Part shown: positions 3,773 to 35,791 of the stretch, piece by piece
Position numbering within the stretch: position 1 is the first letter of the stretch
Layout of the letters: each line of letters opens with the position of its first letter
Assembly: GCA_016935315.1 (NCBI GenBank)
Contig: JAFGRD010000162.1
Location: 1-36,016, forward strand
Length of the DNA stretch: 36,016 bases
Reading direction: 5' to 3'
From: Pirellulales bacterium
Lineage (GTDB): Bacteria; Planctomycetota; Planctomycetia; Pirellulales; Thermoguttaceae
Made by a program: the position numbers and the translations under genes
Notes under the pieces: generated by a model
Told to the model about the DNA's origin: nothing
What the model saw: the letters and a program-made list of their open reading frames with translations, nothing else
Database searches by the model: none

Positions 3773-4555
3773 TCATGGGACGCGGACGGCTGCCGGCTCG
3801 GCAAAGACCTTCAGGTTGCGCAGCCGCCAATCGGCGCCGTGTGTATTGGCGCCGATACGGACCGGTTTCGAGAAGTCGGGCTGATAAGGAAACGGCGCGT
3901 AGTCCACCTCGAACCGTTCTCGCTGCCGGCGGCCTTCCTGGACGGTGACGGTCACCGTGTTGAACTTGTACCGTCCGTGCCGGTCGGTGTTCACCTCGAC
4001 CCGCAGCAGATACTCCACCTGAGCACGGCTCCAATCGATCTGTCGCTGCCCGATCTCGCGGAAGCGGCCATCGGAGAATCCCATGTGCTTCATCACGCCG
4101 TGGGGCGTCTTTCCCGGGGCGACGTCTACGTTGATAGACCAGCAGGAGAGCGACTTCAGGTCGTCTTCCGGACCGGCCACCTGGAAGTTGAGGCAGAACG
4201 AATTGGGGGCCTTGGCGTCGGGCGGTTCGAGAATCGTGAACAGGGCCTCGATCGTGTAGGGGCGTTTGGGGTCCAGCAGCAGGCCCCGCCGGGTCAGGTG
4301 CTGGTTGGCCCCGCCGGCGTCGATCATCACCAGGGCATCCGGCTTGACTCGATACGCGAACGTTCCGGCGAATTGGTGGATATCCCACTGGCCGTTCGGA
4401 TGCACGCCGTCGAACTCCTCCAACACCAAGGCCAGGGGCGCGGGCCGTTGGGCTTCCGGTCGTCGTTCGGGCTGCTGAGCCGGCAGCGCAGTGGTCGCCG
4501 CCCAAGTCGCGATCGTTGCCGTCCACAGAGCGCCTCGACACGCGCGGTTCCTCAT
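3773..4555 (-). CDS. Secreted hypothetical protein, probable jelly-roll fold
   Basis: A 260-residue protein. It begins MRNRACRGALWTATIATWA with a probable Sec signal ending near TALPAQQ. The body is rich in alternating beta-strand patterns (for example EEFDGVHPNGQWDIHQF at the start and FSKPVRIGANTHGADWRLRN near the end). This is the layout of concanavalin-like or DUF1080-like sugar-binding modules of planctomycetes, but no catalytic motif is visible and I do not assign a function. ATG at 4555 has GAAGGAG 6 bases upstream. It lies 44 bp after the stop of the heparinase-like gene and 23 bp before the ggt start, so the three are likely one transcript. The neighbour suggests polysaccharide-related work, which is inference. 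Confidence 0.8.
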   Translation of the reverse strand: MRNRACRGALWTATIATWAATTALPAQQPERRPEAQRPAPLALVLEEFDGVHPNGQWDIHQFAGTFAYRVKPDALVMIDAGGANQHLTRRGLLLDPKRPYTIEALFTILEPPDAKAPNSFCLNFQVAGPEDDLKSLSCWSINVDVAPGKTPHGVMKHMGFSDGRFREIGQRQIDWSRAQVEYLLRVEVNTDRHGRYKFNTVTVTVQEGRRQRERFEVDYAPFPYQPDFSKPVRIGANTHGADWRLRNLKVFAEPAAVRVP

Positions 4556-4599
4556 GATCGTCTCCTTCTGGCTTCGCGACTATCGGTCGCGAGTGGGTG

Positions 4600-6513
4600 C
4601 TATTGCGACGTGACCTCAAAGGGCGACTGCGCCGCGAAGTCGAACTTGCGCCCGTCGACGGTCACGTCGATACGACGCTCCGTCTGCCCGACAACAGCAC
4701 GGGCCGCTTCCACACGAGTCACGTCCACACGGGCCGCCTCGCCGGGCGCGGCGCCGTCGCCGATTTCCAGCAGATGGACGAGCGTCAGAGTCCTGTCTGC
4801 CTGGTAACGGTAATCCGCCCGGTGGGTGTTGACGTCGGTCGCCGTCACGCTCGCGGCGGCCCCGCCCGGCAACAGCGGGCGGCAACGCAACCAGCTTCGG
4901 CCGTTGGATACCGAGAGATTGTTGCCTTCGCGCGAGGGTGCGTCGGGCAGTTGCAGCAGCCATTGCACGTCGGGCAGGCTGCCGCCTTCGGGGGCCGCCA
5001 GGCGATCGACCACCACGACCGTGCCGGGCCGCACGAAGAGCAACTGGCGCACGCAACTCTGTACCAGCTCGGGGGGATAGGCCTGGCCAAACTGGCACGA
5101 CACGGCCGCCCATGGGCCGGCCTCTCGGTGGAACAGGATCTGGCCCGTCTCCAGCTTCCGCCCGCCGGCGAGGTTCTTCTGGAAGTCTTCGACGGTCAGG
5201 AACCATTGCCCGCGCACCGGCCGTTGCGGCTGCCCGCCCAACAGCAGCGTGTTGTGGTTTTCGGTCTTCTGTTGCGGCCCGCCGACGCGGCGGTAGACGG
5301 GCGGATCGACGGCCAGCAACCCGTTGCGATAGACGGCAAAGCCGCCCTGGTCGTAGTGGTTGTGGTCGCCGTAGTGGTCGGTGCAGCGCAGCGCGACGAC
5401 CGTATCGCCGTCGCCGAAGCCGCTGCGGGCGATGAAGTGTCCGCCGCCAGGCCCTCCGGCAAGGAAGCTCAGCGGGGGGGTGGCGGGCTCGGTGTTCAGG
5501 TTCCGCGTGTAGAGCATGTAGAAGACGGGCGTGTCGCCGTAGAATCGTCGCAGGCCGCGTCGCTCGGCCAGCCATCGGCTGAACCAGGCCCCGTGTGGCG
5601 AGCGCAGCGCCCAGGTCATCGCGTCGATCGCCCCGGCCATTTCATAGGTGACGCCGCCGTTGGGCCCCGATTGCAGATCGCCCCAGGGAATGTACCGCAT
5701 GTTGGGCAGCGTGCTGTGGATCAGGTTGTCGAAATGGCGGTCCAGCCAGTCGGCCTGTTCCCGACGCAGCTTGCCGACCAGGTCGGTCTCGAAAGCACTT
5801 TGGGCGCCCAATAAGGTCCAGACGCCGGGCGTCAGATCGTACAGCGCCCAATAACCCATCGGCTCGCTGGGCAGGCCGTCGAGGTATTGCATGGCGGGAA
5901 ACAGCCCGGTGTTGAATCGCCGGCGAATCTGCTCGAACAGTCGATCCGCCGCCTCGTCCTCGCCGGCGGTGGCCAGTGCCCAGACGGCCGTTCCGCCGGC
6001 CGACATCCAGATGTAGTTGTGGAACACGTGATCGTTGCTCACGCGGAACCCGTGTTCGGCCAGCGGCCGGACGCGGCCGCGAACCTCGGCCTTGATCGAC
6101 GGCGTGAATCCCTCGTAGCCGTACAGCCAGTCGTAGGCCAGGGCGAATTCCAGCAGCCGGAAATAGACCTCGAAGGTGTCGACGCTGCCCGGATACTCGT
6201 AGGCCCGCATGGCGGCGATGGCCTTCTCGGCCGCGGCCCGCTGGTCGGTCAACAGCCAGACCATGGCCTGGGCCGACGCGGCGGGCTGCTCGCGGAGCTG
6301 GTCGAGCATGCGCTGGAAGTCGGCGTCGCGCGGGATCGCCTGAAGCTGCGCCAGGGAGATCGCGTGCGGCGTCGGGCCGGGCCGCAGCAGCACGCGCGGC
6401 CGGTCCGTCTTGATCTGCGCCGCCGGCGGGATCAACTCGGCCGATCGGGCCTGAGAGGACGTCATCGGCAGCGCCGCGACAAACAGGCAGCCGGCCCAAA
6501 GGGTTCGATGCAC
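4600..6513 (-). CDS. Heparinase II/III-family polysaccharide lyase, secreted
   Basis: A 637-residue protein with a Sec-type signal (WAGCLFVAALPMTSSQARSA) ending near residue 25. Residues about 60-310 form the alpha/alpha toroid, including VFHNYIWMSAGG (163-174). Residues about 350-600 form the beta-sandwich heparinase II/III domain, with the family signature GDHNHYDQGGFAVYRNG (382-398) and ENHNTLLLGG (418-427). Such enzymes cleave uronic-acid polysaccharides (heparin, alginate, ulvan or similar) by beta-elimination; the substrate cannot be read from the sequence. I choose GTG at 6513 because AAGGAG lies 7 bases upstream and the signal peptide starts there. An in-frame ATG at 6603 would place the N-terminus inside a repeat-derived element. 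First gene of the cluster with the jelly-roll protein and ggt. Confidence 0.92.
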   Translation of the reverse strand: MHRTLWAGCLFVAALPMTSSQARSAELIPPAAQIKTDRPRVLLRPGPTPHAISLAQLQAIPRDADFQRMLDQLREQPAASAQAMVWLLTDQRAAAEKAIAAMRAYEYPGSVDTFEVYFRLLEFALAYDWLYGYEGFTPSIKAEVRGRVRPLAEHGFRVSNDHVFHNYIWMSAGGTAVWALATAGEDEAADRLFEQIRRRFNTGLFPAMQYLDGLPSEPMGYWALYDLTPGVWTLLGAQSAFETDLVGKLRREQADWLDRHFDNLIHSTLPNMRYIPWGDLQSGPNGGVTYEMAGAIDAMTWALRSPHGAWFSRWLAERRGLRRFYGDTPVFYMLYTRNLNTEPATPPLSFLAGGPGGGHFIARSGFGDGDTVVALRCTDHYGDHNHYDQGGFAVYRNGLLAVDPPVYRRVGGPQQKTENHNTLLLGGQPQRPVRGQWFLTVEDFQKNLAGGRKLETGQILFHREAGPWAAVSCQFGQAYPPELVQSCVRQLLFVRPGTVVVVDRLAAPEGGSLPDVQWLLQLPDAPSREGNNLSVSNGRSWLRCRPLLPGGAAASVTATDVNTHRADYRYQADRTLTLVHLLEIGDGAAPGEAARVDVTRVEAARAVVGQTERRIDVTVDGRKFDFAAQSPFEVTSQ

Positions 6514-9502: not shown

Positions 9503-12500
9503 CTACCACCAGCAACACGCCAGCAGCGCATCGACGACTTGTTGGGGCATTCGGTCTTTCTTGAGCCGGTCGCCGGAACCGAGTCGCGCGAACTCGTAGA
9601 CCCACTCCGACGGCACGGGCGACGTCTGCCCGCCGGCCGCCTTCTCAACGGCAACCTTCGGCTGGGAATCCTTCGGACCGGCCGACTTCGACGGCGCGGT
9701 GATCAGTTGCAGGGCGTTGAGGAAGTGGGTCTGATTGTTGCGGGCCAGGAGCATGTCGGTGGCGTTGACTCGCGCGTCGCGGTTGAAGTCGTAGTCGAAA
9801 TCGACGCCGGCCGGGTTGAGGAAGGTTCGAGGGTTGTTGCGGGCCAGGAGCATGTCGGTGGCATTGACCCGCGCGTCGTTGGTCGAGTTGCCCGCATCGG
9901 CCACGGCATTGCCGAAATAGAAGACGTCGTCCTCGACCAGGCCCAGGTTGCCGCCGGCCAGGGCCGTGACCTGCAGCCACTGCTTCAGGACGTCGCCGTC
10001 GGCGAAGAGGATCGTCATCCGGTCCGACCCGCCGACACCCATTCCCGGCCGCACGCTCACGGACGTCGGCGCGGGACCTTCGCTCCAGCCGTCCGGGCTG
10101 TTGTCGTTGCCGACCTTCAGCGCGAAGTCGGCGGCGGTCGGCGTCGCCGCGAGTCGGGCGACGTCGATCATCAGGCCGTTGATTCCCCGGCTGTAGCTGG
10201 TGTAGTTGGCGAACGTGGCCGTGCCCCCCGGCAACAGCGCCTGCTTGTCGGTGGCCACGGCCGCGTCATCGTCGTCATTGGCGGCCGAGTCGTTCCCGTC
10301 AAACGACGAACCGTTGTAGAAGACGTAACGTCCGACCACCTCGGCCGGCAGCTCGACAACCACATCGACGGGCGTGCTGAGGAAATCGTGCGCGGGGGCC
10401 GTGGAGGAGCCGCTGAAGCGGATCGTAGTCGGCTTGCCGTGGGGAAGCCCCGGAACCGGGGTGAATCCAGCATGGCAGAGCTCCACCGGGAGTACGCCGC
10501 CCGGCCAGTTGCCCCCGGCGTCCGTCCACGAGATGGCCACGTACTGGTCCGTGTTCGGGTCGCCATCGAGGTCCAACACGTCGCAGGTGGGGCCCTGCTG
10601 GCCGACGTATCCGGTGCCGAGCACGCCGCTGAAGCCGTCGAAGCTCAGCACGGTCGAATTGAAGTGCAGCCTCAGATCCAGGCCGGGCAAGGTGCTGTCG
10701 TCGTCGGAGGTGGTGTAGCCGGCCACCACGTCGAAACCTTCACCGCCCTTGACCGTCAGCTCCGCCGGGTCGCCCAAGACCGTTTGGAAGGGCCCGTCGT
10801 CGTCGTCGAAGATGGTGCCCTGTCCCGTGCCCGCGTCGATCGTGGCGCCCGTCGGGTTCGACAACACGACGCTGAACGTCTTGTCGGCCGAGGCAACCGT
10901 GTCGCCGAAGACCCCCACCGTGATGGTCTTGAATTGTTCGCCGGGGGCAAAGGTCAGTGTGCCGCCGGCCGCCTGGTAGTCGCTGCCGGCGACGGCCGTG
11001 CCGTCGATCGTGTCGTAGCGAACCGCGACCTCTTCGGTGGCCGCCTCGGAGAGCGACACGGTGAAATCGAAATCGGTGGTGCCGCTGTGGCCTTCCGGCC
11101 GCAGCACGTGGTCGATCGACGCCTGGGGGACGGGCTCGGCGCTGACCACGGTCACCGTGAAGGAGTCCTCCACCCAGAGCGACTCCGAGTCGGTCGCCCG
11201 AACGGTGATCTGGGCGACGCCGTTCCTGTCGGCCACGAAGGTCAACCGCAGCGTGCTGCCGAAGACAGCCGTCTCGACCAGCCCCGGGTTTCCGTTGGCG
11301 GTGACCGAGTAGGTCAGCCAATCGCCCTTGACGGTTAGGTCGGGATCGTCGAACGAGTTGCCGAGGTCCACTTCTTCAGGCGGGTCGTTCTCGTCGACCG
11401 TGACGTCGGGGATGGGGTTCGTCAGCTCCGGTGGGTCGTTGACCCCATCGACTGTGATCGTGACCGTTGCCAGATTGGAGAGCTCGTGAGTGTCGTCGGC
11501 CCAATAGGTGAAGCTGTCGGTGCCGAAGAAGTCCTCGTCGGGCGTGTAGCTGTATGAGCCGCTGGTCTCGTTGAACGTCAAGATGCCGTGCGAAACGTCT
11601 TCATCCAGCAAGGCAGAAAGCGTGTCGCCGTCCGGGTCGCTGTCGTTGTCCAAGACGTTGCCGGTGACGAGATGGTCTTCCTCGACGGACTGCAGATCGT
11701 CGATGGCCACGGGGGCGTGGTTCTCGCCCGAGGAATACTGCCCGGCGTCTTGCCAGTCGATGGCCTCGCCATAGACGAGCGAGAACAGCCCGGTTCGGCC
11801 CTGATCGCTCGGGTCGGCGTCGCTGTCGAGCTCCTCGTCGGCTCCCTGGTCTTTCAGCGTGAACTGGAATCCGTCGATGTCGTCGAAACGCAGGTAGTAG
11901 TCGCCGGGCGAGAGGGCCCCGAACAGATACAGCCCGAAGGCATCGGTCAACATGTCGTCTACCAGCACGTCGTCGGGCGTGCCGGCCTGGCCGTCGGGAC
12001 CGGGCTGATACAGTTCCACCTGGACGTTGGAGAGTCCCCATTCCGTGTTGGCGTCTTGAATTCCGTCCAGGTCGATGTCGTTCCAGACATAGTTGGAGAT
12101 GGAATTGGGATCGGGTTCCGAGATCACGCCGACGCTGCCGCCGCCCTTGGCCGTCTCGCCGTCTTCCTCGATGGGGACCCCGCCCGGGGCGCCGCCCAGC
12201 GAGCCCGGGAAGACCTCGTCCGAGTAGAACACGCCCGTGATGTAGACCACGCCCGCCCGGTTGACCACGATTCCGAAGCCTTCCTCGTTGCCGGAGGGCC
12301 CGCCGAACGACCGGGCAGAACGGAAGTCGCCGTCCTGTTCCAGCTTCAAGCTGAACAGATCACCCCGTCCATGGCTGTTGACCAAGTACTGGCCGTCGCT
12401 CGGGTCAAAATCGACCATGCCTTCGAACAGCCCGGTCAGCAACACATGACCCCGGTGGTCCAGGGCAACCGAGTTGGCCCGATCGATTCCCTGCCCACCG

Positions 12501-15328
12501 ACGCGGCGCGTCCAGAGCAAGCCGCCGGCGGCGTCGTACTTCGAGACGAAGATGTCGTAGTCGCCGTCGCTGATCAGGGTCGCTTCGGGGTTGACGGCGT
12601 CGAAGTCCAAGACCCCCTGGAAGGCGCCGGCGACGTAGCTGTTGCCGTCCTGATCGACGGCGACCCCGTCGGGCAAGTCATCGGCGATTCCCCCGAGCGT
12701 TTCGACCCAGATCAACTCGCCGGTGTCGGTAAAGGCGCTCAGGAAGACGTCGCTCAGGCCGACGCTGGATCGCTGGGCTGCCACGGCCGACACGGGGTTG
12801 AAATCGGCCGTGCCGCGGAAGTGGCCGGTCACGCGGACATGGCCGTCGTCGCCCACGGCGATGCCGGTGGCCTCATCGAACTCGCCGCCGCCGAAACTTC
12901 GGGCCCAGCCGAAGTTGCCCGAACAATCCAGCTTGGCGATGAACGCATCGGCCTCGCCCGCGCTGGCCAACTCGAAAACTCTCTTGCCCGGGTCGAAGTC
13001 GGCAATGCCGTAGAAACTGCCGGCCGTGTAGATGTTGCCGGCCTGATCCAAGGCGAGACCGAGCGCCGTGTCGGGCCCGACGCCGCCGAAGCGTCTTGCC
13101 CAGAGGAAATCGCCGTACCGGTCGAGCCGTGCCACGAAGACATCGGACTCGCCGGCGCTGGTCAGCTCGAAGACGCGATGGCCCGGATCGAAGTCGACGG
13201 TGTCGCGGAAGCTGCCTGTCACGTAGACGTTCAGATTGTCGTCGACGGCCACGCCGAAGGCCACGTCGTCCTCGACCCCGCCGAAGGTTCGCGCCCAGAG
13301 CAGGTTGCCGGCGGAGCCGTACTTGGCGACGAAGACGTCTTCTCCGCCGACGCTGGCGAAGTCCCATTTTGGGCGGCCGGGGTCGAAATCGATTTCATTG
13401 GTAAAACGGCCGACGACCACGACGTTGCCTGCCCGATCGGCGGCGGCGGCCCGGCCTTCGTCAAGACCGTCGGAATCGATCGAGAGCAGGAAGCCGACGT
13501 CCGGGAAATGCCCGCCCATGCCCGCATCCTGATCGTAGGCCGATTGGCCGAATTCCAGCGTAAACTCGTCGGTGACTCCGGCTCGCGTGTCGGCGTCGCT
13601 ATCGTTCGTATCGTCGTCCCCGGCGTTTGAGACCGTGAAGATGTATCCGTCGAGGAGCGTGAACCGAAGGAAGTAGGAGCCGGGCCGAAACAGCAGGTTG
13701 TTTTCGAAGCGGTAGCGCCCCAGGGCGTTGGTGGTGGTCGTCGCCACGTAGACGGTGCCGCCAGCGTCGGCGGAGTTGCGGAACAGCTCGACCGTGGCGT
13801 CTTTGATTCCCGGCTCTCTGGGATCCTGCACGCCGTCGCCGTTCAGATCGTTCCAGACCAGATCGCCGATGGGAGGCCGCACGAGCTTCAGCAGGAACAC
13901 GTCGGACATACCGGCCGACTCGACAGGGGTTGCCTCGGCCCCCGGGTCGAGATCCATGGCGTCCTGAAACGCCCCGGCAATGCAGAGACTGTCACCGGGG
14001 CCGACGGCGATGGCCTCCATCGCGTCGTCTCCCGGACCGCCGGCGTCGTGTGCCCAGCTCAGACGCCCGGCCGGATCGTGCTTGGCGATGAAGCCGTCGG
14101 CGTTTTCGGCCCTCAGCATGATCCGCGCGCCGCCCGGATCGAACAGGGCCGTCCCGTGGAAGACCCCGGTCGTATAGACGTTGTGCTCGGAATCGACCGC
14201 CACGGCGGTCGCCACGGCGGTGTCTCGTCCGCCCATTTGCCGGGCCCAAACGAGTTTGCCGCTGGCACCGAACTTGGAAACGAAGGCGTCTTCATCGCCG
14301 GCGCTGGTGAACAGGGCGGTGGCCGGACCGGGATCCAGGTCGGCGGTCCCTTGGAAGCTCCCGACGGCGCAAATGCACCCACCTTCCACCGCGACCGCCG
14401 AGACGCGGTCGTGAAGCGGCCCGCCAAGCGACCGGGCCCAGACCAGCGATCCCCCGGGAGAGAGTCTGGCCAGGAAGCCGTCCGTGTTTCCCGCGCCGGT
14501 CAGCCCGATGGCGCCGTTGAAGTCGCGGATCTCGGCCGTGTTTTCGAACGACCCGGCGAACACGACAACGCCGTCGGCCCCCGCGGCCACGCCCCCGGCC
14601 AGATCGGTGCCCGTTCCGCCGGCCGACGCGGCCCAGGCAAACTCGCCGTCCGGATCAAGTCTCGACAGAAAGGCGTCGTGTCCGCCCCGGCTACGCAGGG
14701 GATACTGGCCGTCGCCCGGATCGAAATCGACGGTGCCCTCGAAGGCGCCGGCCGTATAGACGCTGCCGTCGTCGCCCAGCGCGACACTCTCGACGAGCTC
14801 TCTGCCCACGCCGCCCAATTGCCGGGCCCAGATCAGGTCGCCCAAGGGGCTAAGCCGACAGACGAACACGTCGTCCGCGCCCGCGCTGTAGAGCAAGTCG
14901 GATTCCTGGTTCGGCCCCATGCTGGCCGTGCCCTGGAACAGCCCGGCGATGTAGACGCTGCCGTCGGCGCCAAGGGCCATGGCCCGGACCTGATCGTCAT
15001 CCGCGCCGCCGATGCGCCTCGCCCAGATCAGCGACCCGGTGGCGGAATACTTGGCGACGAAGGCATCGGCGCCACCGGCGTCGCGCAAGTAGTGTTGGCC
15101 GGCGCCGGGATCGAAATCGACCGGTCCTTCCACCTGGCCGGCGATGTAGACGTTGCCTTGCGGATCGCCGGCCACGGCGAACGCGTGGTCCTCGCCGAGG
15201 CCCCCGATGCTGAAACCGAGGCCGTAGTCGCCCGAGAGCAGGGCTCGCTGTTCGAGCTGCTCAACGGCCAGAAGCCGCCGTGGGACGAACCGACGGGCGG
15301 GCCCTCTTTTCGACGCATTGCCAGCCAT
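9503..15328 (-). CDS. Giant secreted beta-propeller / SdrD-B / Calx-beta / dockerin protein
   Basis: A 1941-residue extracellular or surface protein. Residues 14-32 (VPRRLLAVEQLEQRALLS) resemble the LEPR-XLL N-terminal export motif of planctomycete giant proteins. Two runs of SBBP-type propeller repeats span about 36-485 and 610-1035, each repeat built on W-A-R/GG...D and GxVDFDPG. Each run is followed by an SdrD-B-like domain (487-603 and 1078-1200) with VWNDLNGDGVQD or VWNDIDLDGIQD. Then come a tandem-95/cadherin-like module (1204-1296), an Ig-like or cadherin-like module (1297-1397), Calx-beta (1401-1510), a cohesin-like segment (about 1518-1660), and two dockerin-type repeats with DARVNATDMLLARNN (1818-1832 and 1851-1865). 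ATG at 15328 follows AAGGAGAGG. TATACT on the minus strand (15349-15354) may be its -10 box. It is divergent from the kinase gene. Role unknown; calcium-dependent adhesion or scaffolding is inferred. Confidence 0.9.
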   Translation of the reverse strand: MAGNASKRGPARRFVPRRLLAVEQLEQRALLSGDYGLGFSIGGLGEDHAFAVAGDPQGNVYIAGQVEGPVDFDPGAGQHYLRDAGGADAFVAKYSATGSLIWARRIGGADDDQVRAMALGADGSVYIAGLFQGTASMGPNQESDLLYSAGADDVFVCRLSPLGDLIWARQLGGVGRELVESVALGDDGSVYTAGAFEGTVDFDPGDGQYPLRSRGGHDAFLSRLDPDGEFAWAASAGGTGTDLAGGVAAGADGVVVFAGSFENTAEIRDFNGAIGLTGAGNTDGFLARLSPGGSLVWARSLGGPLHDRVSAVAVEGGCICAVGSFQGTADLDPGPATALFTSAGDEDAFVSKFGASGKLVWARQMGGRDTAVATAVAVDSEHNVYTTGVFHGTALFDPGGARIMLRAENADGFIAKHDPAGRLSWAHDAGGPGDDAMEAIAVGPGDSLCIAGAFQDAMDLDPGAEATPVESAGMSDVFLLKLVRPPIGDLVWNDLNGDGVQDPREPGIKDATVELFRNSADAGGTVYVATTTTNALGRYRFENNLLFRPGSYFLRFTLLDGYIFTVSNAGDDDTNDSDADTRAGVTDEFTLEFGQSAYDQDAGMGGHFPDVGFLLSIDSDGLDEGRAAAADRAGNVVVVGRFTNEIDFDPGRPKWDFASVGGEDVFVAKYGSAGNLLWARTFGGVEDDVAFGVAVDDNLNVYVTGSFRDTVDFDPGHRVFELTSAGESDVFVARLDRYGDFLWARRFGGVGPDTALGLALDQAGNIYTAGSFYGIADFDPGKRVFELASAGEADAFIAKLDCSGNFGWARSFGGGEFDEATGIAVGDDGHVRVTGHFRGTADFNPVSAVAAQRSSVGLSDVFLSAFTDTGELIWVETLGGIADDLPDGVAVDQDGNSYVAGAFQGVLDFDAVNPEATLISDGDYDIFVSKYDAAGGLLWTRRVGGQGIDRANSVALDHRGHVLLTGLFEGMVDFDPSDGQYLVNSHGRGDLFSLKLEQDGDFRSARSFGGPSGNEEGFGIVVNRAGVVYITGVFYSDEVFPGSLGGAPGGVPIEEDGETAKGGGSVGVISEPDPNSISNYVWNDIDLDGIQDANTEWGLSNVQVELYQPGPDGQAGTPDDVLVDDMLTDAFGLYLFGALSPGDYYLRFDDIDGFQFTLKDQGADEELDSDADPSDQGRTGLFSLVYGEAIDWQDAGQYSSGENHAPVAIDDLQSVEEDHLVTGNVLDNDSDPDGDTLSALLDEDVSHGILTFNETSGSYSYTPDEDFFGTDSFTYWADDTHELSNLATVTITVDGVNDPPELTNPIPDVTVDENDPPEEVDLGNSFDDPDLTVKGDWLTYSVTANGNPGLVETAVFGSTLRLTFVADRNGVAQITVRATDSESLWVEDSFTVTVVSAEPVPQASIDHVLRPEGHSGTTDFDFTVSLSEAATEEVAVRYDTIDGTAVAGSDYQAAGGTLTFAPGEQFKTITVGVFGDTVASADKTFSVVLSNPTGATIDAGTGQGTIFDDDDGPFQTVLGDPAELTVKGGEGFDVVAGYTTSDDDSTLPGLDLRLHFNSTVLSFDGFSGVLGTGYVGQQGPTCDVLDLDGDPNTDQYVAISWTDAGGNWPGGVLPVELCHAGFTPVPGLPHGKPTTIRFSGSSTAPAHDFLSTPVDVVVELPAEVVGRYVFYNGSSFDGNDSAANDDDDAAVATDKQALLPGGTATFANYTSYSRGINGLMIDVARLAATPTAADFALKVGNDNSPDGWSEGPAPTSVSVRPGMGVGGSDRMTILFADGDVLKQWLQVTALAGGNLGLVEDDVFYFGNAVADAGNSTNDARVNATDMLLARNNPRTFLNPAGVDFDYDFNRDARVNATDMLLARNNQTHFLNALQLITAPSKSAGPKDSQPKVAVEKAAGGQTSPVPSEWVYEFARLGSGDRLKKDRMPQQVVDALLACCWW

Positions 15329-15670
15329 GGGACCTCTCCTTGAGAGCCAGTATAGAATGACTCCTCAAGAGCCGGCGTAGTGACCGAATTCTGACGGGAA
15401 CGGGTTGGCGCGGGCCCAGAAGACCGCCGGACGTCGTTGCTCACGGGGCGGCTGGGCACGATGAGCCCTGGGCGGCGCTCGATGCCACAACTTCTGCGAT
15501 CCTCGACGCCTTCTGCGGCGCTGGGCGCCACACCTACACACCTACGCAGCATAACATCCCCGCGAAGTGGCGTCAACCACCCTGCCGAATGCCGGGCCAA
15601 CCCGGCACAATCCCACCGTTTTGCAGATCCGACACAAAGGGTGCCCCACCGAGTGCGGGGCCACGACCTC

Positions 15671-15700
15671 CTGGCAGTTTGCCCGCCGTCCAAGTAGAAT
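15671..15700 (+). promoter_or_regulatory. Weak candidate promoter for the kinase gene
   Basis: CTGGCA at 15671-15676 and TAGAAT at 15695-15700 are spaced by 18 bp and match four of six and five of six consensus bases. It lies just upstream of the 24-25-bp tandem repeat, which would then be in the 5' leader. Confidence 0.25.
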
Positions 15701-15709
15701 CGGTGTTGG

Positions 15710-15758
15710 CGGCAGGGGACCATCGGCCGGGAAGCGGCAGGGGCCATCGGCCGGGAAA
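15710..15758 (+). repeat. Two-unit 24-25-bp tandem repeat before the kinase start
   Basis: Two nearly identical units, each beginning CGGCAGGGG and ending ATCGGCCGGGAA, occupy 15710-15734 and 15735-15758, nine bases before the ATG at 15767. They differ by one inserted A and one terminal base. Each carries a GCAGGGG purine tract, so the pair could affect ribosome access or bind a regulator. It could also simply be a slippage product. Confidence 0.7.
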
Positions 15759-15766
15759 CAGAAGCC

Positions 15767-18700
15767 ATGAGTGCAGAGCAGCCACGCGACGACGATTCCG
15801 TCGGGCCGGTTTTCTCCGAGTCTGCCCCGCAAAACACCAACGCCAGAACGACGAGTTGGACGGGTGGCCGGAGCGACGGCTCGACGGTGCAAGACGCGGG
15901 CCCCGGGCGTCTGTGCGGCAAGAAGATCGGGCGATACACACTGCAGCGGGTGTTGGGCAAGGGCGGCTTCGGCACCGTCTATCTGGGCCACGACGCCGAT
16001 CTGGACCGGCCCGTGGCGGTCAAGTTCCTGGATACGAAGCGGCTGCCGCTGCCACATGCCTTCGAGTCGCTGCAAAACGAGGCCCGTACGCTGGCCAGGC
16101 TTCGCCACCCCGGCATCGTGTCCGTCTACGACGTGGGCCGCGACGACGACGGCACGTGCTACATGGTCATGGAGTACATCGAAGGCCGCTCGCTGCAGGA
16201 CTGGATCAGCCGCGAGCGGCTCTCCTTGCGTCAGGCGGCCGCCGGCGTGGCGGCGATCGCCGAGGCCGTGCATCACGCCCACACGCAGGGGCTGGTGCAT
16301 TGCGACCTGAAGCCGGGCAACGTGCTGATCGACCACAAGGGCCGGTTCTACGTGGCCGACTTCGGCCTGGCGGTTCACGAGGACACCCAGCGGTTGCTCA
16401 AGGGGGAGGTCGGCGGCACCCGGGTCTACATGGCACCCGAGCAGGTGCGCGGCGAGACCCATCGCCTCGACGGCCGCACGGATATCTGGGGGCTGGGTGT
16501 TTTGCTCTATGAGTTGCTGACCGGCCGACGCCCCTTCCAGGGCCGAAATCGCGACGAGCTGCTCGACGAGATCAAAAACCGCGAACCCAAGCCGTTGCGA
16601 CAGATCGACGATTCGATTCCCAGTGAGCTGGAGCGGATCTGCCTGAAATGCCTCACCAAGCGGATGACCGGCCGCTACACCACCGCCATGGATCTGGCCG
16701 GTGACCTGCACCAGTGGATTCAGACGCAAAGCGAAGCCTCGGCGGGCAGCGTCCTGCCGGACGATTATTCGGCCAGCGATTCGGTCTCCAGCAGGGAGCG
16801 CTCCTGGTCGACCTATTCGCGCAGAGTCCCGGTGAAGATCGTCCCCCGAGGGCTGCGACCCTTCGGCTCGCAAGATAAGGCGTTCTTTCCGGAACTCCTC
16901 CCCGGCCCCCGAGCCCGCGACGGCCTGCCCGAAAGCATCCATTTCTGGAAGCGCGGCGTCGAAGACGTCGACGCGGGCTTCGGTTGCGGCCTGATTTACG
17001 GCCCGTCGGGGTCCGGCAAATCGTCGTTGGTGCGGGCGGGGCTGTTGCCACGCCTGGCCGGTCACGTGACCGCCGTCTACGTCGAGGCCATGCCCGGTGC
17101 AACCGAAGCACGCCTGTTGAAAGAGCTGCGCAGGCGGTTTCCCCACCTGACCGACGAGCAGGGCCTGGCCGAGTCGTTGGCCCTTCTCCGCGCCGGCGAG
17201 CAAGCGCTGCCCGACCGCAAGGTCCTGATTGTGCTCGATCAGTTCGAGCAGTGGCTGCACGGTCAGCGCGCGGAAGCCGACACCCGGCTGGTCGAGGCCC
17301 TGCGGCAGTGCGACGGGCAGCGGTTGCAGTGCCTGATCCTCGTCCGCGACGATTTCTGGCTGGCCACGTCCCGCTTCCTTCAGGACCTGGAGGTGCGGCT
17401 GGTCGAAGGTCGGAACGTGGGCCTGGTCGACCTGTTCGACCCCCGCCATGCCACGCGCGTGTTGATCGACTTCGGCCAGGCGCTGGGATGCCTTCCCGAA
17501 GACCTCAGTCAGTTGACCGACGGGCGGGAAGCGTTTCTGGAGCGGGCGGTGGTTGAATTGACCCGCGAGGGCAAGGTTGTGCCGGTCCAACTCAGCCTCT
17601 TCGCCGAAATGGTGAAGGCCAAGCCGTGGTCGCCCGAGACGCTCGACGAGGTGGGCGGCGTGGAAGGCCTGGGGGTGGCGTTCCTCGAAGAGTCGTTCGG
17701 AGCCCGGACCGCCAACCCGCAACATCGCGCGCACCAGCAAGCCGCCCGCGCCGTGTTGAGGACGCTGCTGCCCGACAGCTCGGCCGACATCAAGGGCCAC
17801 GTGCGATCCGACGGCGAGCTGTTCGAGGCTTCCGGCTACACCGATCAGCCGGCGTTCGACGACCTTCTGCGGATCCTCGACACGGAGTTGCGATTGATCA
17901 CGCCCACCGATCCGGAAGGACAGCAGTCGACCGGCGCGGAGCTGCCTCGTCCGGAGTCGGGTCGGCGATACTACCAGCTCGCTCACGACTACCTGGTCGG
18001 TCCGCTGCGCGAGTGGCTGACGCGCAAACAGAAGGAGACCTGGCGGGGCAGGGCCCGGTTGTGCCTCGAACAGAGGACCGCCCAATGGACGCGGAGCCAA
18101 CAGCCCCGCTTTCTGCCTTCGCCGCCGGAAACCCTGGCGATTTGCGTCGGGGTGCCCAAGCGGCAGCGGACCATCGACGGGCAGCGCATGATGCGTGCCG
18201 CCGTGAGGCGCTACGGCACGATCGCGCTGCTGCTGGTCGCGTTGGCGGCCGCACTCGGTGGGGCCGCATGGGAGGTCAACGGCCGGATACAGGGGCGCCG
18301 CCTGACCCAGGCAATCCTGGCATCCAGGCCGGCCGACCTGGAAGGGCTCGTCCACGAGGAGTTGGGGCCTTATCGCCGTTGGGCCGATCCCCGGCTGCGA
18401 AGCAAGGCCTTCGACGAGTCGACCGCCCTGCCGCAACGAATCCGCGCCGGCCTGGCAATTGCCGCGGCCGGCAACGGCCCGGCCGATTCGCCGGACAATC
18501 GGGCGCTGATCGCCTTGCTCTACGATCGGTTGTTCGATTGCAGTCCGGACGAGTTTCCGCTGATTCGCGACGGCCTGGCGCCGCACAAGGCGGACCTTCT
18601 GCCCGGGCTTTGGACGAAACTCCACGATCCGGCCGACACGCCGCAGCACCGCAGGACTCCCTTTCGCGCGGGCGTTTGCCTGGCGACTTACGCGCCGCGG

Positions 18701-20335
18701 GCCGACGCGTGGACCGAGTCCGACGCGGTCTTCCTGGCCGAGTACCTGGTGCGGGTCAACCCGAACGAGCAGCCCGATTGGCGCAAGCACCTGAAGCCGG
18801 TGGCTGCGCGGCTGTTGAGGCCGCTGGAGGTCGTCTTTCGCGACGGGCAACTCGGCGAGGTAACACGAACCGCCGCCGCAACGGCCCTGGCCGATTTTGC
18901 CGCCGAGGATCCCCGGTTGCTCGCCGAGCTGGCCGCCGACGCCATCGCCCCGCAATACGACGTCGTCTACGCGGCGCTGGTTGCCAAGGGGTCCGATCGC
19001 GAGGCGATTGTCCAAAGGCTGCGGGCCATTCTTGCGGAAACGCCCCGGGCCGCCGCGTCGGCGGCCGAACGCATCGGGCTGGCCCGGCGGCGGGCGGGGG
19101 CCGCCGTCACGCTGATTCGTCTCGGGCAACGCGAAGACGCCCTGCGAGTCCTGGACCCGTCCGAGGACGGCGATCCCGAATTCTCCACGCAGTTGATCCA
19201 CCGACTGAAGGACCGCGGCGTGACCGAAGCCGATCTGCTTGCGTGCTTGGACGCCGCCCGCGACACGGCCGCGCGGTATGCACTGCTGTTGGCGCTCGGC
19301 GAGTTTGTCGAGACGCCCGGCGGCAACGCGGCAGGCCTTGGCACCGCCGCCGAGCCGCAGCGTGCCCGGTTGCGAAGAACGGTCCTCGACTGGTTTCGCA
19401 GCGATCCCGATTCCGGCGTCCACTCCGCGTGCGGCTGGCTCTTGCGACGGCTCGATGCGCCCGAGGCGGCCAAGACGCGAGAGACGCCGATGCCGTTCGA
19501 CCCAACGCGGAAGCGCAACTGGTTCGTCGAGACGATCGGCGACGAGACGATGACGTTTGTCGTTTGCCGCCCGGGCTCGTTCATGATGGGGGCCGCGGAT
19601 TGGGATCCCGACCGCGAGATCGACGAGCCACTGCACGAGGAGACCATCGAACGGGCGTTTGCGCTGTGCGACCGCGAGGTGACCAACCGGCACTATCGGA
19701 CGTTCTGCACCGACGCGAACAAGCTGTTTCCGGCCAATAAGGAATTCGCTCCCGAGCCGGAACATCCGGTGGTGGGTGTGGATTGGTATCATGCCGTCTT
19801 CTTCTGCCGCTGGCTGACGGAGCAGGCGGGCATGGACGAGGCCGACCAGTGCTACAACGACCCGGCCGATTGGCAACGCGGTGTCGGCGGCGTTTTCACA
19901 ACCATCGAATATCACGCCGAGCGGTCCGGTTATCGTCTGCCGACCGAGGCCGAGTGGGAGTACGCCTGCCGTGCCGGTACGCCGACGCCCTATAGCTTCG
20001 GCAGCGATCAGAGCCTATCGGGCCGATACGCCTGGACTCTGGAGAACTCCGGCCGCCAGGCACACACGCCCGGACAACTCGGGCCGAACCCGCTGGGGCT
20101 GTTCGACATGCACGGCAACGCCATCGAGTGGTGCCAGGACATCTACCGCACCGATCCCCGCGAGCGTGCCTACAGCCGCATGCTGCGCGGCGGGAGCTTC
20201 TTCTTCTACACGGTCGAGAGCCGCTCGGCCTTTCGGCGCCGGGGCGAGTCGGACGCGGCGCTGTCGAGCTTTGGTTTTCGCGTGGCCAGGACCATGGCCG
20301 CACCCGGCCAAACCGCCGGCGGCTCGTCTCCCTGA
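15767..20335 (+). CDS. Ser/Thr protein kinase - nSTAND NTPase - FGE-like fusion, membrane-anchored
   Basis: A 1522-residue multidomain sensor. Kinase domain about 55-315: glycine loop LGKGGFGTV, Lys86 in VAVKF, HCDLKPGN (178-185, Cys in place of the usual Arg), DFG at 198-200, MAPEQ. nSTAND-type ATPase about 385-760: Walker A GPSGSGKS (412-419), Walker B VLIVLDQFEQ (486-495), and the winged-helix end HDYLVGPLREWLTRKQKETW. One membrane helix lies near 817-835. A helical repeat-like region (about 850-1230) follows, then a C-terminal FGE/SUMF-like C-type-lectin fold (about 1250-1512) with RLPTEAEWEYACRAGTP, GLFDMHGNAIEWCQD, LRGGSFFF and FGFRVAR. The cysteine pair of true formylglycine-generating enzymes is absent. 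ATG at 15767 has only GCAGGGG/GGGAA-like purines upstream. The likely role is signal-dependent oligomerisation and phosphorylation. Immune-like conflict function is inference; no partner gene is adjacent. Confidence 0.93.
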   Translation: MSAEQPRDDDSVGPVFSESAPQNTNARTTSWTGGRSDGSTVQDAGPGRLCGKKIGRYTLQRVLGKGGFGTVYLGHDADLDRPVAVKFLDTKRLPLPHAFESLQNEARTLARLRHPGIVSVYDVGRDDDGTCYMVMEYIEGRSLQDWISRERLSLRQAAAGVAAIAEAVHHAHTQGLVHCDLKPGNVLIDHKGRFYVADFGLAVHEDTQRLLKGEVGGTRVYMAPEQVRGETHRLDGRTDIWGLGVLLYELLTGRRPFQGRNRDELLDEIKNREPKPLRQIDDSIPSELERICLKCLTKRMTGRYTTAMDLAGDLHQWIQTQSEASAGSVLPDDYSASDSVSSRERSWSTYSRRVPVKIVPRGLRPFGSQDKAFFPELLPGPRARDGLPESIHFWKRGVEDVDAGFGCGLIYGPSGSGKSSLVRAGLLPRLAGHVTAVYVEAMPGATEARLLKELRRRFPHLTDEQGLAESLALLRAGEQALPDRKVLIVLDQFEQWLHGQRAEADTRLVEALRQCDGQRLQCLILVRDDFWLATSRFLQDLEVRLVEGRNVGLVDLFDPRHATRVLIDFGQALGCLPEDLSQLTDGREAFLERAVVELTREGKVVPVQLSLFAEMVKAKPWSPETLDEVGGVEGLGVAFLEESFGARTANPQHRAHQQAARAVLRTLLPDSSADIKGHVRSDGELFEASGYTDQPAFDDLLRILDTELRLITPTDPEGQQSTGAELPRPESGRRYYQLAHDYLVGPLREWLTRKQKETWRGRARLCLEQRTAQWTRSQQPRFLPSPPETLAICVGVPKRQRTIDGQRMMRAAVRRYGTIALLLVALAAALGGAAWEVNGRIQGRRLTQAILASRPADLEGLVHEELGPYRRWADPRLRSKAFDESTALPQRIRAGLAIAAAGNGPADSPDNRALIALLYDRLFDCSPDEFPLIRDGLAPHKADLLPGLWTKLHDPADTPQHRRTPFRAGVCLATYAPRADAWTESDAVFLAEYLVRVNPNEQPDWRKHLKPVAARLLRPLEVVFRDGQLGEVTRTAAATALADFAAEDPRLLAELAADAIAPQYDVVYAALVAKGSDREAIVQRLRAILAETPRAAASAAERIGLARRRAGAAVTLIRLGQREDALRVLDPSEDGDPEFSTQLIHRLKDRGVTEADLLACLDAARDTAARYALLLALGEFVETPGGNAAGLGTAAEPQRARLRRTVLDWFRSDPDSGVHSACGWLLRRLDAPEAAKTRETPMPFDPTRKRNWFVETIGDETMTFVVCRPGSFMMGAADWDPDREIDEPLHEETIERAFALCDREVTNRHYRTFCTDANKLFPANKEFAPEPEHPVVGVDWYHAVFFCRWLTEQAGMDEADQCYNDPADWQRGVGGVFTTIEYHAERSGYRLPTEAEWEYACRAGTPTPYSFGSDQSLSGRYAWTLENSGRQAHTPGQLGPNPLGLFDMHGNAIEWCQDIYRTDPRERAYSRMLRGGSFFFYTVESRSAFRRRGESDAALSSFGFRVARTMAAPGQTAGGSSP

Positions 20336-35092: not shown

Positions 35093-35791
35093 ATGAACCG
35101 TCGTATTCTGTTGCCGGGCTTGGCTGCGGTTGCCATGGCGATGGCCTTTTTGGCCTCGTCGGCAGACGCGGGGCTGTTCGGCCGCTGGGCCACCTGCCGG
35201 CCGGCCACCTGTGCACCGGCTACCTGTGCACCGGCCACCTGCGAACCGGCCACTTGCGAGCCCGCCACGTGCGAGCCCGCCACGTGCGAGCCAGCCACCT
35301 GCTGTCCGGCGCCGTGTTGCCGTCCGAAGTGTGGCCTCCTAGGGCTGCTGAAACGCTGCCGCCCCAAGACATGCTGTGTGACCGAGTGCTGCGAACCGGC
35401 CACCTGTGAGCCCGCCACTTGCGAACCGGCCACCTGTGAGCCCGCCACGTGCGAACCGGCCACTTGCTGCCCGACCACGTGCCGCCCCAAGTGCGGCTTG
35501 CTTGGACTGCTGAAGCGCTGCCGTCCCAAGACGTGCTGTGTGCCGGCATGCTGCGAACCGGCCACTTGCGAACCGGCCACTTGCGAACCGGCCACATGCG
35601 AACCGGCCACTTGCGAACCGGCCTGCTGCGAGCCCGCGTGCTGCGAGCCGTGCTGCAAGCCCCGCTGCGGCCTGCTGGCCAAGCTGAAGGCGCGCCTGGC
35701 AGCCTGCTGCAAGCCTCGCTGCTGCGAGCCGTGCTGCTGCGAGCCGGCGTGCTGCGAGCCGGCCTGCTGCGAACCGGCCTGCTGCAAGTGA
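35093..35791 (+). CDS. Secreted cysteine-rich CEPAT-repeat protein
   Basis: A 232-residue protein of unknown function. The Sec signal ILLPGLAAVAMAMAFLASSADA ends near residue 26. The mature chain is almost entirely repeats of the pentapeptide C-E-P-A-T/C (for example CEPATCEPATCEPAT at 50-64), in three blocks. Each block closes with a basic amphipathic segment: KCGLLGLLKRCRPKTCC (79-95), the same again at 133-149, and RCGLLAKLKARLAACC at 191-206. The third block switches from CEPAT to CEPACCEPAC. Roughly one residue in four is cysteine. Such a protein would need either dense disulfide bonding in the cell envelope or metal binding. ATG at 35093 has AAGGAG 8 bases upstream, a strong signal, and a terminator follows. 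A homogeneous coding pattern in one frame supports it being real. Confidence 0.85.
   Translation: MNRRILLPGLAAVAMAMAFLASSADAGLFGRWATCRPATCAPATCAPATCEPATCEPATCEPATCEPATCCPAPCCRPKCGLLGLLKRCRPKTCCVTECCEPATCEPATCEPATCEPATCEPATCCPTTCRPKCGLLGLLKRCRPKTCCVPACCEPATCEPATCEPATCEPATCEPACCEPACCEPCCKPRCGLLAKLKARLAACCKPRCCEPCCCEPACCEPACCEPACCK

Follow-up and report, generated by a model that had tools for sequence, protein, structure and literature searches.

Receptors in which an effector, a STAND module and an FGE-type sensor share one chain have been described in general terms. In the available portion of their text, Kaur et al. (2021; PMC8195603) present STAND-FGS proteins, some with diversity-generating retroelements (DGRs), as an N-terminal effector (Ser/Thr/Tyr kinases are listed), a central STAND region that includes nSTAND1, and a C-terminal FGS domain. 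A STAND module, either nSTAND1 or NACHT, together with an FGE-type CLec domain bearing the variable region is also found among the DGR targets of Thiohalocapsa and of clade 5D (PMC10907252, sections available to us). Cyanobacterial DGR variable kinases combine a Ser/Thr kinase with a C-terminal CLec domain, some of them DGR-written; most are predicted to be cytosolic, and a STAND domain is not mentioned in the accessible text (PMC7517822). In planctomycetes, single-pass Ser/Thr kinases with a periplasmic sulfatase-modifying domain of the FGE type have been reported, in a description that, as far as it is available, names neither nSTAND1 nor DGRs (PMC11032199). Finally, Treponema denticola TvpA (PDB 2y3c) is a DGR variable protein consisting of the FGE-type CLec fold as a single domain (PMC6328139, in part). 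Our literature search, with most subscription papers and figures outside its coverage, found no paper pairing DGR with "Planctomycetota"; the older spelling does occur.

Here we describe a planctomycete member of this group. The window, which is the whole stretch of 36,016 nucleotides analyzed from a Pirellulales bacterium, encodes a protein with the effector-STAND-FGS order of the conflict receptors. Compared with the text of Kaur et al., whose exact layout may be given in a figure, the protein differs in a sensor predicted to lie outside the membrane by virtue of one helix, in an intervening solenoid, and in a genome with no detected DGR. Unlike the Thiohalocapsa and clade 5D targets, so far as the sections available describe them, the window copy has a kinase effector and lacks the codon mark, and neither a reverse transcriptase (RT) nor a template repeat (TR) was found for it. 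Unlike TvpA, its FGE-type domain is fused to a solenoid, a membrane helix, a STAND module and a kinase. The protein is probably a single-pass receptor kinase with a cytoplasmic STAND switch, an extracytoplasmic FGE-lectin ligand sensor, and a loop that is DGR-rewritten in some relatives and fixed here.

Gene, homologs and domain order

The gene occupies 15767..20335 (+) on contig C44 of a 7.1-Mb assembly (172 contigs, 95.3% complete) and encodes 1522 aa in the order kinase, nSTAND1, membrane helix, helical solenoid and FGE-type lectin domain. Pkinase, nSTAND1 and FGE-sulfatase each score above the Pfam cut-off. The original prediction, made from the sequence, that a single 1522-residue frame joins a kinase, an nSTAND-type ATPase, one helix, a helical middle and an FGE-like C-terminus is confirmed by the open frame, Pfam, motifs and structure models. 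An antisense open frame of 1457 aa (window 15542-19915, -) overlaps the gene; base composition is its most likely cause.

Scanning the species-genome collection gave 251 encoding stretches, and the best 80 of the 251 were reduced to 79 homolog loci, all with planctomycete record titles save one "uncultured bacterium." Singulisphaera acidiphila and Roseiconus nitratireducens are among the species with a homolog. We aligned the query with ORFs scoring above 800 bits from these loci and from related genomes, giving 91 rows; identical ORFs and two partial duplicates from the genome of the window are omitted, and contig ends truncate some rows. Mean identity to the query is highest in nSTAND1 (0.55) and the kinase (0.50), with the FGE-type domain (0.37) and the solenoid (0.30) more variable. 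The family nSTAND region, at E up to 1e-60, is present in 32 of 148 Planctomycetia genomes, the window's own counted. That genome also holds a 59%-identical paralog on another contig, which groups with the query as a separate clade in the tree. The paralog carries relatives of the query kinase and nSTAND parts; the eight best other FGE-type proteins of the genome (L001-L008) have none within the DNA examined.

Tandem copies of the receptor gene were seen at L052 (three), L107 (two) and L057 (two, one incomplete), and the loops differ between the readable copies of L052 and L107. An in-frame TAG falls within the match at L031, G117:C157, L014 and L017; it seems to break the frame in L031 and may be merely the terminal stop in L014 and L017.

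Kinase and nSTAND1 modules

Residues 55-310 (15929..16696, +) form a PknB-like Hanks-type Ser/Thr kinase domain (Pkinase 57-307, 2.4e-53), and the best fold match is PknB itself (5u94; Z 34.4, rmsd 1.7, 258 aligned). The catalytic set is complete: Lys86, Glu105, Asp180, Asn185 and DFG198-200. In the 91-row alignment, query included, Lys86 is conserved in 88/88 rows with a letter and Asp180 in 89/89. The catalytic loop departs from the family. The residue before the catalytic Asp is Cys179 rather than Arg, so that the loop reads HCD (16298..16306, +; CAT TGC GAC) and the kinase is non-RD. HRD stands in 87 of the 88 relatives with a letter, the paralog of the window genome among them, and the remaining one has HLD. 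The Cys179 codon, TGC, is a single base away from an Arg codon, and the HCD reading could be a base error in the assembly. As read, the HCD loop suggests a kinase that can become active without being phosphorylated on its activation loop in the usual way.

In plants, an HCD catalytic-loop motif is known from non-RD immune receptor kinases. To our knowledge, no STAND domain lies in the same chain of plant receptor kinases of the XA21/FLS2 type. As far as the available descriptions of XA21 and FLS2 go, the likeness to the window protein extends to a surface sensor, one membrane helix and a non-RD kinase, and is an analogy only, the sensors being unrelated. Non-RD receptor kinases are known in plant surface immunity (PMC4064043, in part).

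The nSTAND1 NTPase region spans residues 356-790 (16832..18136, +; PF20703 409-780, 2.7e-20, 73.8 bits against a cut-off of 27.1) and is as conserved across the family as the kinase. Its Walker A motif, GPSGSGKS (residues 412-419; 17000..17023, +), fits GxxxxGK[ST] in 91/91 rows. Walker B, VLIVLDQ (residues 486-492; 17222..17242, +), runs into DQFEQ (491-495), which is invariant in 91/91 rows. Both the Walker A/B ATPase and the kinase with Lys86, Asp180 and DFG had been predicted, and these residues and motifs are all present in the protein. By sequence, the nSTAND part had no match in the PDB at E 0.1, and the fold-search list for the kinase-STAND model (residues 45-845) was taken up by kinases. 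In that model (pLDDT 87.9, pTM 0.57) the single domains are good and their mutual arrangement is uncertain.

Membrane helix, solenoid and topology

A single membrane helix is predicted at residues 812-830 (18200..18256, +), with its N side inside according to the charge rule. The helix separates the FGE-type domain from the kinase and nSTAND1. A hydrophobic segment stands at this position in 82/91 rows, and the charge rule over the family gave N-in for 72, a tie for 9 and C-in for 1. The membrane tether and kinase-plus-STAND layout put forward originally are thereby supported by Pfam, the hydrophobic segment and the structure models. Residues 838-1240 (18278..19486, +) form an all-helical solenoid in the structure model, a predicted extracytoplasmic stalk whose fold weakly matches solenoids of the importin, clathrin-adaptor and CAND1 types. 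The model of the post-helix part, solenoid followed by FGE-type fold, has a pLDDT of 91.2 and a pTM of 0.90. Judged by charge, the kinase and nSTAND1 would be cytoplasmic, and the solenoid and lectin sensor would lie outside the membrane.

The FGE-type domain as a putative ligand binder

The C-terminal FGE-type C-type-lectin domain covers residues 1252-1509 (19520..20293, +), assigned by its fold and by PF03781 (1263-1508, 5.6e-39; 134.8 bits against a cut-off of 23.3). True FGEs have two cysteines before the closing GFR motif; the window protein does not. The stretch previously noted as cysteine-free corresponds to residues 1475-1492, and within it we take Phe1480 and Ser1485 to be the counterparts of FGE Cys336 and Cys341, in a register set by eye against human FGE. 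Among the 81 rows with both columns filled, Cys is found at 1480 in none, at 1485 in 12 and at both in none; the query domain has seven other cysteines. The claim that the catalytic pair is missing is thus borne out, and its absence is the rule across the family, not a peculiarity of the window gene.

TvpA is the best PDB match of the domain both by sequence (3.4e-18) and by fold (2y3c; Z 30.5, rmsd 2.4 over 245). Given this match and the missing cysteine pair, the FGE-like domain most likely binds a ligand and would make no formylglycine, in keeping with the role originally proposed. For TaqVP, another such variable protein, its authors considered it unlikely that FGE activity could readily be assembled (PMC6328139, in part). 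Two entries labeled "Ser/Thr kinase" in the PDB sequence list, 5nxl and 5nyy, were rejected as a link to kinases; the fold list identifies them as T. curvata FGE.

Other chemistry in the same fold has to be weighed, since PvdO (Z 27.9) and EgtB (22.3) also match the model well, with true FGEs at about 23. A PvdO- or EgtB-like enzyme in place of a binder is nevertheless improbable in our estimation: TvpA matches better, the NCBIfam equivalog cut-offs are missed by far (PvdO 61.6 of 500 bits, EgtB 31.3 of 360 bits), and the loop is hypervariable and NNY-rich in the family, as described below.

A homologous loop written by DGRs in two relatives

By alignment and codons, residues 1475-1505 (20189..20281, +) make up a loop homologous to DGR variable regions, here lacking the DGR codon mark. 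The loci L074 and L040 each encode a relative that shares the full domain order and has this loop written by a DGR; TR, variable region (VR), RT and adenine-biased mismatches are present at both. L074 encodes a complete family member (Pfam kinase, nSTAND1 and FGE) that ends in a VR at 12540-12660, with the TR beyond it at 12941-13061. The RT gene (13757-14944, -) lies about 1.1 kb past the receptor gene, and its product contains LGNQTSQ and YVDD stretches, which we take to be DGR-typical. Between TR and VR, 20 of 22 mismatches fall on template adenines (p 2e-10). L040 has its own TR/VR and RT, with 9/13 mismatches at TR adenines (p 7e-4) and a VR that looks shortened. Relatives of the L074 RT were found at 3/79 homolog loci, one of them being a mere 205-aa RT-like fragment with no Pfam match beside the family member of L090.

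When 80 family loops were compared with 164 loci, a same-genome pair emerged only for L074, a locus represented twice; two cross-genome look-alikes for the loops of L056 and L095 were discounted as template repeats. At RT-bearing loci, TR/VR pairs were present in 7/14 (L145, L147, L148, L149, L152, L153 and L040). Of the three targets profiled among these seven, that of L040 is the sole full family member, and those of L147 and L148 are kinase-FGE proteins without nSTAND1. The sensor seems common to different receptor designs. L147 (TR 5839-5938, VR 4419-4518; 10/12 mismatches at template adenines) and L148 (TR 5864-5990, VR 4446-4572; 18/22) are two separate DGRs of one Gemmataceae genome.

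At the genome level, the 148 Planctomycetia genomes showed no clear enrichment of RT with the family: a DGR-type RT at E up to 1e-50 occurs in 3/32 family-bearing against 8/116 family-free genomes, and at E up to 1e-30 in 4/32 against 12/116. Some RVT_1 match is present in 26/32 homolog genomes, many being of other kinds by size.

The codon mark across the family

DGR mutation converts AAY codons to NNY codons exclusively. In the L074 template, AAY stands at 11 positions of the loop, and these columns can be followed through the family. For the 77 members in which 9 or more of the 11 positions are filled, the template columns hold 647/846 NNY codons, where the third positions of the respective genes would predict 418. 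This and the following counts overstate independence, since the aligned genes share ancestry and a few are near-copies. Taken singly, 43/77 members reach p under 0.05, and 18 are perfect. We set this enrichment aside as stand-alone proof until the amino-acid control and the control columns agreed. Indeed, N, D, Y, F, H and C are obligately NNY-coded and common in the loop, so that the pattern could be a mere amino-acid effect in a family unconnected to DGRs, a possibility to which the unenriched RT presence in family genomes also lends itself.

Among residues for which NNY and NNR codons both exist, the excess remains in the template columns (307/444 NNY against 229.5 expected) and in those only: 45 control variable columns of the FGE domain gave 1017/2052 against 1029.3, and the other loop columns 397/816 against 400.1. 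Moreover, K, E, Q, M and W, which NNY cannot encode, make up 68/879 residues in the template columns against 763/3694 in the control columns. Under this stricter test, 14/78 members singly reach p under 0.05, and 21/78 are all-NNY where 3.4 are expected. Single control columns can be as NNY-rich as template columns, with a maximum of 0.88, so only the summed test counts. An amino-acid effect is contradicted by the L074 locus, adenine-biased template repeats and RT genes adjoining two members, and we give that explanation almost no credence.

Members with at least 10 of 11 NNY codons are scattered over the tree (19 changes for this label against 23.8 in shuffles), which is consistent with repeated gain or loss. 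For two perfectly marked members, L109 and L052, the search of their genomes for a template repeat returned only the self-match (0/2), and the genomes of the perfectly marked L044, L083 and L095 have no RVT_1 match at all. A perfect mark therefore seems to be evidence of past, not present, DGR writing. With RT missing from most family genomes, marked members lacking a TR, and six loci at which the loop is constant, the loop appears to function in fixed form in many family members. The six (L081, L084, L085, L088, L097 and L100) have a near-constant loop of the GGTYL[NT]D...ADGFRVART type and a neighbor gene in common, and form a subgroup, presumably with a fixed ligand, that is worth study.

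The window copy appears orphaned and fixed

The loop of the window protein has 6/11 NNY codons (p 0.58), the chance level, with 3/7 among degenerate residues; its paralog has 7/11 (p 0.27). Glu1484 (GAG) cannot be reached by adenine mutation of AAY. No RVT_1 match was found in the window genome (95% complete), nor was a homolog of the L074 RT at E 1e-30, and the search for a second copy of the loop found none, the runner-up being a 34-bp stretch at E 0.008. We therefore rejected an active DGR in this genome. With no codon mark, no RT and no loop repeat, the window copy appears to be an orphaned, fixed receptor. Its loop was either never DGR-written or was written long ago and then drifted, and a DGR could have been missed in a genome of 172 contigs that is 95% complete.

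These results go beyond the original prediction in three respects: the cysteine-free stretch has its counterpart in the variable region of DGR targets, hypermutation affects the loops of some relatives, and the kinase is not of the RD type.

Genomic neighborhood and the defense question

Generally, the neighbors look ordinary. Those annotated in the window include T2SS proteins K and E, HisRS, gamma-glutamyltransferase, an aldo/keto reductase and an SdrD/SBBP-repeat surface protein. The last, divergent from the kinase gene at 9503-15328 (-), has 1941 aa with SBBP repeats and SdrD_B, Calx-beta and cadherin-like domains. Further along, 35093-35791 (+) encodes a cysteine-rich protein with CEPATCEPATC-type repeats that matches a keratin-like Pfam model.

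A link of such STAND proteins to conflict and defense systems had been cited originally, with recurrence of homologs in defense islands as a check; a defense-island setting found no support. PADLOC profiles gave no match at E 1e-5 to ten of the window's neighbor genes, and the 25 listed of the 35 PADLOC matches of the query itself all fall in the kinase domain. Profiles were run on the window's neighbors; around the homologs, clusters were named from their sequences, and none of the 25 listed clusters (570 ORFs, 76 homolog loci) looked defense-like by eye, the largest of them (15 loci) mixing several families. The neighborhood favors neither defense nor any single pathway, and a defense role is unproven.

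These data bear on two further explanations. The protein could be an Avs-like anti-phage STAND system whose kinase effector shuts the cell down upon infection. Its N-terminal effector, central STAND and C-terminal sensor follow the tripartite plan, and a counter-invader function has been suggested for STAND-FGS proteins that carry kinase effectors and are associated with DGRs (PMC8195603, in part). Neither the ten neighbors nor the listed PADLOC matches, all in the kinase, fit such a system. Avs proteins presumably bind phage proteins inside the cell. The sensor of the window protein is predicted to lie outside, whereas characterized Avs proteins bind conserved phage proteins (PMC10907252, sections available). 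We regard an anti-phage system of this kind as doubtful.

Alternatively, the protein could have no part in defense and be a planctomycete receptor kinase of the ordinary sort that responds to an environmental or developmental signal, the ligand of its FGE domain coming from nutrients, wall or matrix. Secretion and housekeeping genes as neighbors would suit this, as would the conserved loops of the six-locus subgroup, whose common neighbor looks metabolic by eye, as for a dedicated receptor. ECF-sigma-like genes, again by eye, lie near six other relatives, and periplasmic FGE-type domains are common on planctomycete Ser/Thr kinases (PMC11032199, available text). However, a STAND switch and the DGR-written sensors of some relatives suit recognition of a threat or of non-self better than that of a fixed nutrient. 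An ordinary receptor is a serious candidate, to which we assign a little under an even chance.

Discussion

We return to the single-pass receptor kinase with a STAND switch. In the mechanism we propose, the external FGE-type lectin sensor, held on its helical solenoid, would bind a ligand through the loop that DGRs hypermutate in some relatives. Since no DGR was found and no codon mark is seen in the window lineage, this receptor would recognize one fixed ligand. Binding or clustering of the ligand might free the STAND ATPase, which would then exchange nucleotide, self-associate and gather the kinase domains, and the gathered kinase would phosphorylate downstream targets.

A more speculative extension, which we think unlikely as it stands, casts these proteins as surface innate-immune receptors of planctomycetes. 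The NLR plan, with its STAND module, and the receptor-kinase plan would be united in one membrane-spanning chain with a DGR-rewritable lectin sensor; once a useful ligand was found, the DGR would be lost and the receptor fixed. The window gene would be one such case, its shift to a non-RD HCD loop paralleling the plant immune kinases.

The general design is already published, and the contrast between fixed and hypermutated members is the most useful feature of the family. A loop that serves as a rewritable binding surface, with no active site, would account for why the FGE domains of the family lack the enzyme cysteines. With hypermutated and fixed versions of one receptor available, whether DGR-written STAND sensors recognize invaders, kin or nutrients becomes a comparative, testable question.
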